A stretch of 64,000 bases of DNA, taken from NCBI RefSeq assembly GCF_018324685.1, contig NZ_AP023354.1:5022001-5086000 (forward strand). Reading direction: 5' to 3'. Of this stretch, positions 26,627 to 54,771 are shown in pieces. The DNA is from Actinocatenispora sera (GTDB lineage Bacteria; Actinomycetota; Actinomycetes; Mycobacteriales; Micromonosporaceae). The notes beneath the pieces were generated by a model, which was not told where the DNA came from, searched no databases, and was given only the letters and a program-made list of their open reading frames with translations. The position numbers were made by a program, and so were the translations under genes. Within the stretch, counting starts at the first letter, position 1. Every line of letters starts with the position of its first letter.

Positions 26627-27046
26627 ATGGACACCCAGCAGGCGCTCACCGAACGCCGCACCGCCACCGCCGGGCTCCGGGCCGCCCGCACGCTGGTCGG
26701 CGCGTACCTGGCCGTGAGCGCGCTCGCGGTCGCCGCGCTCGTGGCGCTGCACGACCATCCCAGCCTGGTCAACTCCGCCTCGTGGGTACGGGCCAGCATC
26801 GTGCTGGTCACCGCCGTACTGATGTTCCTGTTCGCCCGCGGCGCGGTCCGCGGGTCGCGCCGGGCCTGGCTGCGGCTGCGGATCGCCTCCGCGGTGATGC
26901 TCGTCGCGATCGCGGTGATCGTGTCGCTGCCCGGCTTCCTGCCCGCGTGGTTGCGCATCGAACAGGGCCTCTGCGGCCTGCTGCTCCTGGCCGTCGTAGT
27001 GCTCGTCAACCGGCGCGCCGTGCGTACCGGGTTCGCGGCGAGCTGA
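26627..27046 (+). CDS. Small integral membrane protein, unknown
   Basis: A 139-residue protein with about four membrane helices (residues 24-44, 57-75, 87-105, 110-128) and no recognised domain. The ATG is chosen because the region before it has no homology, and a GGGAG site is 8 bases upstream. It lies 83 bases before the histidine kinase gene and could be co-transcribed with it, perhaps as an accessory membrane partner. Nothing in its sequence tells more. Confidence 0.6.
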   Translation: MDTQQALTERRTATAGLRAARTLVGAYLAVSALAVAALVALHDHPSLVNSASWVRASIVLVTAVLMFLFARGAVRGSRRAWLRLRIASAVMLVAIAVIVSLPGFLPAWLRIEQGLCGLLLLAVVVLVNRRAVRTGFAAS

Positions 27047-27129
27047 CCGTGGCCGCGCCCCGCTCGACCACGACCCTGGAGCCCGCCCGCCCGGCTAGAT
27101 TGGCCCCGGGGGGCGTCGAGGGGGGCAGC

Positions 27130-28389
27130 GTGGTCGCCGGACGGGTACGGTCCTGGCTGGTCCGCCGGGCGGGCGGGACACCGGTGCTGACCGTGCTGCC
27201 GTACCTGCTGCTGGCGTTCCTCGCCGCGATCAGCGTGCCGATCCGGCACGCCGGCGGCCGCTCGCCGGCCGCCGAGCTGGTGCTCGCCGCGGTCCTGGCC
27301 GGCTGGATGCTCTGCCTGTTCACCCTGCGGCCGGCCTGGCGGAACCGGCCCGCGGTGATGGCCGTCTTCCTTGCCGGCGTGGTGCTGGTGACCCTGCTGC
27401 TGGTGCTGCGGGCGCCCTGGTTCGGCTTCTTCACCCCCGCCGCCTACCTGTACGCCTACCGGCTCGTGCCCTGGCCCGGGCAGCTCGCCGCCGTCGCCGC
27501 GGTGGCGGTGGTCGCCGGCACCGCGCAGGCGTACGCGGTGCCGCTGCACGACGCCGCCGGTATCGCCACCTACCTCGCCATCGTGGTGGCCAACGCGCTG
27601 CCGATGTGCGGATACGCCTGGCTGCGGCAGAACCTCGACCGCCAGGACCGGCAGCGCCGGCAGGCGCTCGCCGAGGTGAGCGCGGCCAACGAACGGCTCG
27701 CGGCGAGCCTCGCCGACAACGCGGCGCTGCACCGGGCGCTGCTCGACCAGGCCCACCAAGCCGGCGTCGCCGCCGAACGCCAGCGGCTGGCCCGCGAGAT
27801 CCACGACACCATGGCACAGGGACTGACCGGCATCGTCACCCAGCTGCAGGCCGCCGAGCAGGCCGCGGACGAGCCGGCCCGCTGGCGCCGGCACTTCGCC
27901 GCGGCGACCGCGCTGGCCCGGGAGAGCCTGACCGAGGCCCGCCGGTCGGTACACGAGCTGCGTCCCGAACCGCTGAGGACCGGCCGGCTGTCCGAGGCGC
28001 TGGCCGAGGTCGCCAGCCGCTGGTCGGCCCGCAGCGGGATCGACGCCCGGGTCACCACCACCGGTACGGTCCGGCCGATGGCCACCGACGCCGAGGTGAC
28101 GCTGCTGCGGGTGGCGCAGGAGGCGCTCGCCAACATCGCGAAGCACGCCGGCGCCAGCCGCGTCGGGGTGACCCTGTCGTACCTGGCGCACGAGGTCGCG
28201 CTGGACGTGCGGGACGACGGCCGCGGCTTCGATCCCACCGCGCCGTCGGTACGACGTACCGACGGCGGGTTCGGATTGGTGGCGATGCGGCAGCGGGTCG
28301 AGGCGAGGGCCGGCAGCCTCACCATCGAGTCCGAGCCCGGCCTCGGTACCACCATCAGCGCGCGGATCCCCACGGAGCCGGACGCATGA
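27130..28389 (+). CDS. NarL-type sensor histidine kinase
   Basis: A 419-residue kinase with several N-terminal membrane helices (about residues 18-155) as the sensor, a short coiled linker (QDRQRRQALAEVSAANERL), and the HisKA_3 domain ERQRLAREIHDTMAQGLTGI with the phosphorylated His near 226. The HATPase domain has RVAQEALANIAKHAGAS, DDGRGFDP and GGFGLVAMRQRV. A GTG at 27049 is in frame, but the GTG at 27130 has GAGGGGGG and fits the topology better. Its stop overlaps the first of a chain of mini-ORFs leading to the regulator gene. Confidence 0.85.
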   Translation: MVAGRVRSWLVRRAGGTPVLTVLPYLLLAFLAAISVPIRHAGGRSPAAELVLAAVLAGWMLCLFTLRPAWRNRPAVMAVFLAGVVLVTLLLVLRAPWFGFFTPAAYLYAYRLVPWPGQLAAVAAVAVVAGTAQAYAVPLHDAAGIATYLAIVVANALPMCGYAWLRQNLDRQDRQRRQALAEVSAANERLAASLADNAALHRALLDQAHQAGVAAERQRLAREIHDTMAQGLTGIVTQLQAAEQAADEPARWRRHFAAATALARESLTEARRSVHELRPEPLRTGRLSEALAEVASRWSARSGIDARVTTTGTVRPMATDAEVTLLRVAQEALANIAKHAGASRVGVTLSYLAHEVALDVRDDGRGFDPTAPSVRRTDGGFGLVAMRQRVEARAGSLTIESEPGLGTTISARIPTEPDA

Positions 28390-28572
28390 CCGACGACGCA
28401 CTTTCCGCCGCGGAGGAGGCACGATGACCGACGACGCGCTCGCCGCAGCGCAGGAGACGGGATGACCGACGACGCGCTCGCCGCAGCGCAGGAGCCGGCA
28501 TGAGCGACGACGCGCTCGCCGCGCAGGAGGCAGGATGACCGACGACGCACTTTCCGCCGCGGGGGAGGCAGG
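28386..28572 (+). repeat. Five-unit tandem array coding coupled mini-ORFs
   Basis: Five near-identical units start at 28386, 28424, 28462, 28500 and 28535 (38, 38, 38, 35 and 38 bases). Each begins ATG(A/C) and ends with a GGAG-like site before the next ATG. The first four read as complete mini-ORFs of 13, 13, 13 and 12 codons, the form MTDDALSAAEEAR, MTDDALAAAQETG, MTDDALAAAQEPA and MSDDALAAQEAG, each stopping in an ATGA that is also the next start. The fifth runs on to 20 codons (stop 28595-28597), past the regulator start at 28573. The unit length of 3n-1 and the 3-base deletion in unit four keep the overlap, which is what makes the array notable. Confidence 0.85.
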
Positions 28573-29223
28573 ATGGCTGCTCCGGTACGGCTGCTGATCG
28601 CCGACGATCACCCCGTCGTACGGGACGGGCTGAGCGGCATGTTCGCCGCCGATCCCGGGTTCGAGGTGGTCGGCGAGGCCGCGGACGGCGCCGAGGCGGT
28701 ACGCCGGGCCGAGGCGCTGCGCCCCGACGTGATCCTGCTCGACCTGCGGATGCCCGGCATGGACGGGGTCACCGCGATCACCGAGCTGGCCCGGCGGCAC
28801 ATCGAGTCGCGGGTGCTGGTGCTCACCACGTACGACACGGACGGGTACGTGCTGCCGGCGATCGAGGCCGGCGCCACCGGGTACCTGCTCAAGGACGCGC
28901 CGCGCGAGGAGCTGCTGCGCGCCGTGCGGGCCGCCGCGGCGGGCCGCTCGGTGCTGGCGCCGTCGGTCGCCTCGCGGCTGATGCACCGGGTCCGCACCCC
29001 GGCGGCGGAACCGTTGAGCCGGCGCGAGATCGAGGTGCTGGAGCTGGTCGCGGCCGGCACCACCAACCGGGAGCTCGCCGCCCGGCTGTTCATCAGCGAG
29101 GCGACGGTCAAGAGCCACCTGCTGAACATCTACACCAAGCTCGGCGTCAACGACCGGGCCGCCGCGGTCGCCGAGGCATTCCGCCGCGGCCTCCTCACCA
29201 TCACCCCCGACGACCCACCCTGA
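28573..29223 (+). CDS. NarL/LuxR-type response regulator
   Basis: A 216-residue regulator. The receiver domain has IADDHPVVRDGL, the phosphorylated Asp in VILLDLRMPGMDG (near 55), LTTYDTDGY and YLLKDAP. The LuxR-type DNA-binding domain (about residues 148-210) has LSRREIEVLELVAAGTTNRE and ISEATVKSHLLNIYTKLG. The ATG has GGGGGAGG upstream. It belongs with the kinase ending at 28389, from which it is separated by the mini-ORF array; this arrangement may tune its level relative to the kinase. The targets are unknown; the ABC exporter downstream is convergent. Confidence 0.93.
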   Translation: MAAPVRLLIADDHPVVRDGLSGMFAADPGFEVVGEAADGAEAVRRAEALRPDVILLDLRMPGMDGVTAITELARRHIESRVLVLTTYDTDGYVLPAIEAGATGYLLKDAPREELLRAVRAAAAGRSVLAPSVASRLMHRVRTPAAEPLSRREIEVLELVAAGTTNRELAARLFISEATVKSHLLNIYTKLGVNDRAAAVAEAFRRGLLTITPDDPP

Positions 29224-29242
29224 CCGCCAGCCCCCGGCGAAG

Positions 29243-29302
29243 GTTGATCAAGGGATCGGGTCATCGCGTCCAGGCGCGATGTGCCCCGATCCCTTGATCA
29301 AC
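29243..29302. terminator. Long bidirectional hairpin terminator
   Basis: Perfect 18-bp arms (29243-29260 and 29285-29302; GTTGATCAAGGGATCGGG and its complement) with a nested CATCGCG/CGCGATG stem in the loop. It sits between the response regulator and the convergent ABC exporter genes. Confidence 0.8.
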
Positions 29303-29352
29303 GTCAGGATCTCTTGAGCGAGGTCGAGATTCCTCGATCAACCCATCCGGGG

Positions 29353-54056: not shown

Positions 54057-54563
54057 ATGATGGCGCGGTTCGTGGAGATCAGCCTGGCCAAGCGGGGCGC
54101 GGTGTGCGTGGCCCGGTTGCTGGACGCCGAGGCGCCGGCGACCTGCGCCGCGGTGTGGGACGCGCTGCCGGTGGACGGCCCGGCGTACCACGCCAAGTAC
54201 GCCCGGAACGAGATCTACGCACTGCTGCCGGCGCTCGCGACCAGCCCGCCGATGGAGCATCCGACGGTGACGCCACTGCCCGGTGACGTGTGCTTCTTCG
54301 CCTTCGAGGGCACCGAGATCGGCTCCCCGGCGTACGGCTACGACGCCGGCAGCGCGGCACACGGCGGCCCGCAGGTGATCGACCTGGCGCTGTTCTACGG
54401 TCGCAACAACCTGCTGATCAACGGCGACCGCGGGTTCGTGCCGGGATCGGTGTTCGCCACCGTCGAGCAGGGCCTGCCGGCGATGGCCGAGGCCGCGCAG
54501 GACATGTGGCTGCGCGGCGTCGAGGGAGAACGCCTCCAGTTCCGCCGCCTGGACGACCGGTAG
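54057..54563 (+). CDS. DUF3830 cyclophilin-like protein
   Basis: A 168-residue protein of the DUF3830 family. It has FVEISLAKRGAVCVARLLDAEAPATCAAVW, the conserved Y-A-R-N-E-I-Y-A strand segment, PGDVCFFAFEG and FYGRNNLLIN. The fold resembles cyclophilin-like small beta-barrels; no activity is known. It follows the amidase by 35 bases in the same unit. DUF3830 often neighbours amidohydrolase, Asp/Glu racemase and GntR genes, which fits. Its last eight codons (RLQFRRLDDR) lie in the first unit of a 29-bp tandem array that continues beyond the stop. Confidence 0.78.
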   Translation: MMARFVEISLAKRGAVCVARLLDAEAPATCAAVWDALPVDGPAYHAKYARNEIYALLPALATSPPMEHPTVTPLPGDVCFFAFEGTEIGSPAYGYDAGSAAHGGPQVIDLALFYGRNNLLINGDRGFVPGSVFATVEQGLPAMAEAAQDMWLRGVEGERLQFRRLDDR

Positions 54564-54771
54564 GTCGGTTCCGCCGCCTGGACGACCGGTAGGTCGGTTC
54601 CGCCGCCTGGACGACCGGTAGGTCGGTTCCGCCGCCTGGACGACCGGTAGGTCGGTTCCGCCGCCTGGACGACCGGTAGGTCGGTTCCGCCGCCTGGACG
54701 ACCGGTAGGTCGGTTCCGCCGCCTGGACGACCGGTAGGTCGGTTCCGCCGCCTGGAAGAACGATAGGTCGC
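54540..54771 (+). repeat. 29-bp tandem array (8 units) from the end of the DUF3830 gene
   Basis: Units start at 54540, 54569, 54598, 54627, 54656, 54685, 54714 and 54743; the first seven are near-perfect copies (TTCCGCCGCCTGGACGACCG then GTAGGTCGG), the last is diverged at four or five bases. The first unit codes the gene's last residues and stop; each unit carries TAG and a small GACC/GGTC stem. 29 is not a multiple of three, so no reading frame continues on the plus strand. It ends at a strong hairpin. Confidence 0.9.

Follow-up and report, generated by a model that had tools for sequence, protein, structure and literature searches.

The window analyzed here is a stretch of 64,000 nucleotides (nt) from Actinocatenispora sera (contig NZ_AP023354.1, positions 5,022,001 to 5,086,000). 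It encodes a NarL-type two-component system whose sensor histidine kinase and response regulator genes are separated by an array of five short overlapping open reading frames (mini-ORFs), each carried by a repeat unit of 38 or 35 nt. The kinase gene lies on the forward strand at 26947-28389, with a provisional start codon, and its translated product (26947-28386) matches the Pfam domains HisKA_3 (3e-18) and HATPase_c (6.8e-14). The regulator gene is found on the same strand at 28573-29223 and encodes Response_reg (1.9e-28) and GerE/LuxR (GerE, 8.3e-20) domains.

The original prediction described this five-unit chain from the sequence, and the chain is real. On the forward strand, its ATG codons lie at 28386, 28424, 28462, 28500, and 28535, followed by that of the regulator at 28573, which gives spacings of 38, 38, 38, 35, and 38 nt. 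The first ATGA holds the kinase stop codon TGA (28387-28389). Units 1 to 3 (28386-28427, 28424-28465, and 28462-28503) are 38 nt with 13 codons each, unit 4 (28500-28538) is 35 nt with 12 codons, and all four mini-ORFs end at the TGA of the following ATGA. Unit 4 is three bases short, yet its phase is intact, as predicted. Unit 5 (28535-28597) is again 38 nt, and its mini-ORF of 20 codons runs to a stop codon at 28595-28597, 25 bases inside the regulator gene. The predicted ATGA overlap is present at the kinase stop and four times within the array, but it is absent at the regulator, which begins with ATGG, and for this reason mini-ORF 5 overruns into the regulator gene. In both sister species read, the regulator starts with ATGACA.

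Tandem Repeats Finder independently reports the array with a period of 38, 5.1 copies, and a score of 233. A 17-base pattern of the unit start, with up to three mismatches, has 9 matches in the window compared with 2.17 expected, and none of 100 shuffles reached 9. GGAG-like sites had also been noted before each ATG; seven pattern matches occur versus 4.4 expected, but 14 of 100 shuffles equaled this, so these sites alone are not beyond chance. Units 1, 2, and 3 are included in the search profile R1 and match it at E 1.5e-14, 4.4e-15, and 3.4e-13, respectively, and unit 4, which is outside the model, matches at E 1.4e-10. Unit 1 belongs to the T-type. Units 1 and 5 are identical at 36 of 38 positions, and each shares 35 of 38 with the single unit of the sister species Actinocatenispora comari (genome G001). 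Units 2 and 3 are also identical to each other at 36 positions and share 31 and 30 with the G001 unit. A role as an attenuator, which had been proposed, found no support in Rfam, where positions 28000-29000 gave no match up to E 1. By eye, the mini-ORFs in the window have no run of a single amino acid.

A dispersed family with a patchy distribution

The unit is not confined to the window. When the array was searched as DNA against the A. sera genome, a single contig of 7.04 Mb, 10 matches were returned, the window counted. Six of the other nine lie at gene starts or junctions, and three (5012215, 6499344, and 239803) are chance matches in coding-like sequence. Profile R1 added further places in the same genome, such as one whose units measure 35 and 38 nt and another that has four in-frame 39-nt units. 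At E <= 0.001, R1 matched 21 of 41 genomes (A. sera included), of which 14 have only one or two matches. Higher counts were found in G001 (23), G003 (11), G035 (24), G037 (8), and G008 (7).

With a wider profile, R2, matches at E <= 1e-7 were obtained in 22 of the 397 genomes searched within the order. Across the class, 2 of 394 genomes were matched at E <= 1e-8, A. sera itself and one genome from the same order, which speaks against a class-wide family; in both searches only 14 candidates per genome were scored. Among 34 named genomes, nine matched R2 at E <= 1e-6: A. comari, Prauserella flavalba, Actinophytocola algeriensis, and six Amycolatopsis. Of the genomes designated by handle, G188 matches Amycolatopsis coloradensis, G111 matches Amycolatopsis azurea, and G297 also belongs to the genus Amycolatopsis. 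Amycolatopsis, Prauserella, and Actinophytocola are members of the Pseudonocardiaceae; Actinocatenispora is a member of the Micromonosporaceae. The other 25 named genomes did not match R2. These include Actinocatenispora rupis, Amycolatopsis oliviviridis, and Prauserella shujinwangii, as well as named genomes of Kutzneria, Saccharopolyspora, Saccharothrix, Micromonospora, Actinoplanes, Asanoa, Nonomuraea, Streptomyces, Kribbella, and Frankia. The distribution of the element is patchy, even inside single genera.

The richest of 16 genomes compared is G035 (loci L149-L156 and L290-L298), a 3.0 Mb draft genome from another family with 40 matches at E <= 1e-4. Unit variants particular to this genome and compensatory changes in the hairpin are present.

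A phage search for the element gave no match, and an exact 19-base pattern was not found in viral contigs. The plasmid search returned two weak Haloferax matches within a cobyrinic acid synthase gene, judged to be chance, and no plasmid match for the second unit type. In the open-access PubMed Central literature, the repeat is not described among the matches listed.

Empty and filled sites at orthologous junctions

Unit number varies between relatives at the kinase-regulator junction, as the original prediction had proposed to compare. The window has five units, G001 (regulator 96% identical) has one, and G003 (94%) has none. The G003 junction is a plain ATGACA overlap with nothing unit-like in its sequence. 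The C-terminus of the window kinase (IPTEPDA) resembles that of G003 (IPTPEADA), and the G001 kinase ends in unit-like sequence. The possibility of an ordinary overlap retained in relatives was examined at 80 regulator-found loci in named genomes, and none had an array of the window kind in the 130 nt upstream viewed by eye; these regulators are 66-82% identical and may be paralogs, and the near orthologs above were taken from a separate search.

The same pattern is found at unrelated genes, whose names, beyond those of the two-component genes, were assigned by eye from protein sequences. At trpB-trpA in Amycolatopsis, 27 of 28 readable loci are empty, and G297 has three units (30 loci out of 60 genomes, two without an anchor left out). 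Its sister G091, with a TrpA 98% identical, has a plain ATGA, with ATGAGCGGGTTG in place of the array plus ATGAGCACAGTG. The two also differ at four bases of the trpA start. In the genus of G050, korA-korB-like genes have 0, 1, 1, 3, and 4 units in five readable loci (two of seven, without an anchor, were left out), and the difference between G262 (none) and G050 (one) is exactly one 38-nt unit. Loci matched by eye have two or four units before a phosphatase-like gene and one or two at an ABC permease pair. Single-unit loci number 45, of which 31 have exactly 38 nt.

The element is also present inside genes. A malate-synthase-like gene is uninterrupted at 27 of 31 loci (30 returned from 40 genomes, plus L269) and carries a reverse-oriented, in-frame element at the other four. 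In G437, this insert is exactly 39 nt.

Position of copies relative to genes

A script classified 106 loci (9 from A. sera and 20, 23, and 54 others), which are stronger profile hits rather than a random sample. Two of them, L182 and L276, share one unit, leaving 105 places. Ten of the 106 are antisense to their host gene, and in nine of these an antisense ORF runs through the copy or starts just before it. Of the other 96, 79 are sense on both sides and 13 are sense on the downstream side; the script call for L157, L284, L290, and L302 was overruled by eye, and these four were counted as sense. By script, no sense copy among the classified loci lies inside a gene with the frame running through it.

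In 62 of 74 loci with units delimited by stop-start pairs, an ORF of at least 60 codons ends in the first RTGA and another opens at the last RTGA. Other RTGA sites in the same 74 loci show such a pair in 133 of 663 cases. At an ABC ATPase pair (L091 and L160), the first copy makes up the last codons of the upstream gene, and units can thus be absorbed into a host protein.

The reverse-oriented copies in genes or at gene starts are L269, L274, L311, L312, L267, L275, L273, L289, L260, and L287. By eye, their hosts resemble malate synthase, leucyl-tRNA synthetase, methylmalonyl-CoA mutase, and others, and the copies encode a linker-like peptide. For L275, which is located close to its gene's start, the frame is uncertain.

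Reading-frame phase

Units delimited by stop-start pairs on both ends number 124 in 74 loci, with L182 assigned to its own array. These counts exclude the 10 antisense loci as well as 52 hits, comprising fused forms and end copies, that lack a stop-start pair. There are 97 units of 38 nt, 6 of 35 nt, and 4 of 41 nt, so that 107 are 2 mod 3; the other 17 divide into 13 at 0 mod 3 and 4 at 1 mod 3. The spacing between unit cores depends on what lies between them. Of the 62 spacings that contain a stop-start, 53 measure 38 nt (55 are 2 mod 3 and 7 are 0 mod 3), and all 19 that lack one, which come from nine loci, measure 39 nt. With both classes pooled, none of the 81 spacings is 1 mod 3. The reading frame is therefore kept, either by 38 nt with a stop-start or by 39 nt without one. 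In G852, four fused units form a single leader of 161 nt, which is also 2 mod 3.

In 15 of 96 arrays, no long upstream ORF ends in the first RTGA; the other 81 begin at an upstream stop. Of these, 63 relay through stop-start pairs to a start codon at the array end, 13 open in frame into the next gene, and 5 break. Locus L283, counted as in frame, is a leader ORF of 65 codons and may fit the relay better. Arrays that break the phase had been named as an observation that would count against a relay, and they do exist: L081 (the window, at its last step), L151, L197, L268, and L299. The ribosome relay that had been proposed is nonetheless favored by the frame data, with 76 of 81 arrays in phase. 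We infer that a random frame would pass approximately 2/3 of arrays, which 76 of 81 exceeds, though the copies are related. Conservation of frame is the best evidence, indirect as it is, that the mini-ORFs may be translated.

The hairpin and the Shine-Dalgarno sequence

The main-type unit contains an imperfect hairpin of the form CCGCC-GA-CGYR, an eight-base loop, and CGCG-GA-GGCGG, with the Shine-Dalgarno sequence GGAGG within it. The hairpin was analyzed in 47 distinct 38-nt main-type units against 500 shuffles. Paired cells account for 92.0% (86.7 +/- 0.7 in shuffles), 15 cells are changed on both sides (3.0 +/- 1.7), and the covariation score is 0.196 (0.096 +/- 0.012); no shuffle reached any of these three values. 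Shifting the hairpin arms reduces pairing, double changes, and covariation score. The double changes occur at pairs 11-34, 15-30, and 16-29: AU at 11-34 together with GC at 15-30 in G035, GC at 11-34 in G001, and AU at 16-29 in G208. When each of 34 loci contributes a single unit, the permutation p for pairing at 11-34 is 2e-4. Predicted folding energies of main-type units are -16.7 and -18.7 kcal/mol.

Elsewhere in the window, a long inverted repeat, GTTGATCAAGGGATCGGG ... CCCGATCCCTTGATCAAC, lies 3' of the regulator gene at 29241-29305 and, by eye, is perhaps a terminator. A 29-nt unit at 54539-54770 is present in eight near-identical tandem copies (98% matches, score 443) and is unrelated to the array.

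A probable mobile leader cistron

The array is probably a tandem of a short mobile element that acts as a coupled leader cistron and is present in several actinobacterial genera. The element is a 38-nt repeat unit whose core is a hairpin of approximately 30 nt. What can be read from the DNA is its dispersal, its presence or absence at junctions, the open frames of its neighbors, the main-type hairpin, and the phase. Because the unit ends in a Shine-Dalgarno sequence and an ATGA-like sequence, an inserted copy becomes a leader cistron of approximately 13 codons.

In the proposed mechanism, a ribosome that finishes the kinase would reinitiate at the overlapping ATG and translate the mini-ORF. 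Its passage would open the structure over the next Shine-Dalgarno sequence. The ribosome would then stop in the next ATGA, reinitiate, and proceed stepwise to the regulator. At the last step in the window, translation of the regulator may rely either on initiation at GGGGGAGG or on the ribosome terminating 25 nt downstream. An insertion would be tolerated because the Shine-Dalgarno sequence and the start codon are located at the 3' end of the element and coupling is kept. Since the element is found at unrelated genes and, reversed, within enzymes, it appears to be mainly selfish. Most likely, the family is a selfish repeat that purifying selection on the neighboring genes keeps in frame, and any gain through unit number, such as the dose of the regulator, would be secondary.

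Several points weigh against this interpretation. Two weaker hairpin measures were matched by 23 and 22 of 500 shuffles, and 19 of 47 units lack pairing at 18-27. The double changes come from only three genomes (G035, G001, and G208) and thus represent few events. The window T-type unit folds more weakly (-9.3 kcal/mol), as does another T-type unit (-12.0 kcal/mol), and the mean folding z-score over 83 distinct units is only -0.9. The Shine-Dalgarno sequence of the empty ortholog is predicted to be no more unpaired than those of the array (0.30 compared with 0.28-0.62). Many units are kin by duplication or orthology, and counts of them are not independent. The sequences behind R1 and R2 were copies at junctions that included the RTGA flanks, and this make-up tilts the census toward such copies and their length. 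The window's own chain breaks at the regulator. Lastly, no mover was identified among 18 genomes checked for Y1 transposase genes. The family PF01797 is absent from the element-bearing genomes G003, G037, G208, G132, G290, G297, and G301, and the flanks of the three Y1 transposase genes that were found hold no element copy.

These three genes (L368, L369, and L370) are single IS200-like Y1 transposase genes in G000, G035, and G001. The three genomes are the only ones of the 18 with PF01797 and are also those with the most element matches of the 16 genomes compared. With seven element-bearing genomes that lack the gene and no copies in its flanks, an IS200-like Y1 transposase is unsupported as the mover, though still conceivable.

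The original prediction regarded slippage that duplicates the local ATGA junction, with no dispersed family, as the null explanation. The units are indeed in tandem and the junction is ATGA. However, the identical unit type is found at other junctions of the same genome and in other genera, the empty ortholog in a sister species has a plain ATGA without unit-like sequence, and single units occur on their own at the 45 loci above. Slippage as the origin is refuted by this dispersal and by the sites that are empty in relatives, and we consider it extremely unlikely. Tandem duplication may still be the route from one unit to several. A different possibility is that the mini-peptides themselves are the product, as small proteins or tags selected for their sequence. 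Peptides resembling M(S)TADVLFPAEAA are alike across many loci, and the unit is also found as an N-terminal extension of a downstream ORF. Against this, the mean entropy at codon positions 1, 2, and 3 is 0.71, 0.48, and 0.49 in the main type and 0.78, 0.78, and 0.61 in the T-type, and the antisense copies within genes code for a different peptide. A bias of changes toward synonymous sites had been suggested as a check. There is no excess at the third position, and the four 38-nt units of the window vary at 4 first, 2 second, and 4 third codon positions, which speaks against selection at the peptide level and leaves this explanation very improbable.

The array could instead be an adaptive tuner, in which the number of units is selected to set the ratio of kinase to regulator and each step sheds some ribosomes. 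The differences in unit number between species fit this idea (5, 1, and 0 at the kinase-regulator junction and 0 to 4 at korA-korB), as do the by-eye cases at the phosphatase-like gene and the ABC permease pair. The presence of the element before unrelated genes and reversed within enzymes is better explained by spread than by a role in a single operon, and the tuner is unlikely. A further reading seems rather unlikely: a mobile translation part, in which a family of approximately 38 nt would be directed to RTGA overlaps with its own hairpin-gated Shine-Dalgarno sequence and start codon, would make chains of coupled leaders, and would shift the ratio of neighboring proteins between species through gain and loss of units. 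The reading we prefer remains that of a largely selfish, frame-keeping leader cistron.

Insertions between overlapping genes of an operon should disrupt their coupling, and this element appears to be accepted by rebuilding it. Its two forms, 38 nt with a stop-start and 39 nt without, record which frames natural selection guards. Orthologous junctions with zero to five units are natural experiments for measuring termination-reinitiation. Gene annotation may take the repeat for N-terminal extensions or overlook it as tiny ORFs.

Comparison with known systems

In function, the element would be comparable to termination-reinitiation coupling and to the bicistronic design. One study of overlapping gene pairs describes an ATGA overlap with the Shine-Dalgarno sequence in the upstream ORF and a local structure proposed to block de novo initiation (PMC6728339). 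The stepwise relay would fit the pairs measured there. In those pairs, the overlap is single and joins two real genes; in the present case, the genes are separated by a repeated mini-ORF, up to five times in the window. The likeness lies in the 107 of 124 units that are 2 mod 3 and the 63 of 81 arrays that relay, and it does not extend to the last step in the window.

In the bicistronic design, a short leader cistron bears the Shine-Dalgarno sequence of the target gene, and its stop codon overlaps the next start. That design is engineered and single, whereas the element here is natural, dispersed, and in tandem, and can be viewed as its natural counterpart.

Repetitive extragenic palindromic (REP) elements are extragenic and associated with Y1 transposases of the REP-associated tyrosine transposase (RAYT) type. 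Like REP elements and miniature inverted-repeat transposable elements (MITEs), the element is a dispersed short hairpin that is mobile, judging by the empty sites. It differs from the REP/RAYT system in that Y1 genes are present in only 3 of 18 genomes, and their link to the element is not established. No autonomous transposon relative of the element was found around the Y1 genes or among the 18 genomes checked. With respect to the terminal inverted repeats of MITEs, the CCGCC...GGCGG arms, which may not be the true ends of the element, pair and covary at one position. No clear target duplication emerged; the RTGA at both ends may be target or element, and four bases are replaced at trpA.

Rickettsia palindromic elements (RPEs) are described as short dispersed elements of approximately 150 bp with a palindromic core that are found in unrelated metabolic genes; many are in-frame insertions that leave the host ORF open, and nearly half of the first set lies inside ORFs (PMC10969869). 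Compared by description rather than by sequence, the element is likewise dispersed, has a palindromic core, and is found in frame within genes, as at four of the 31 malate-synthase-like loci (exactly 39 nt in one of them) and in the antisense ORFs of 9 of 10 reversed copies. Its core is an imperfect hairpin with covariation in the main type and is weaker in the T-type of the window. Unlike the RPEs, the element is 38-39 nt long, belongs to another phylum, and in most copies examined is located at stop-start overlaps of two genes as a mini-cistron. Among repeats, palindromic elements inserted in frame, like the RPEs, appear closest to it, with differences in size, host, and main site.

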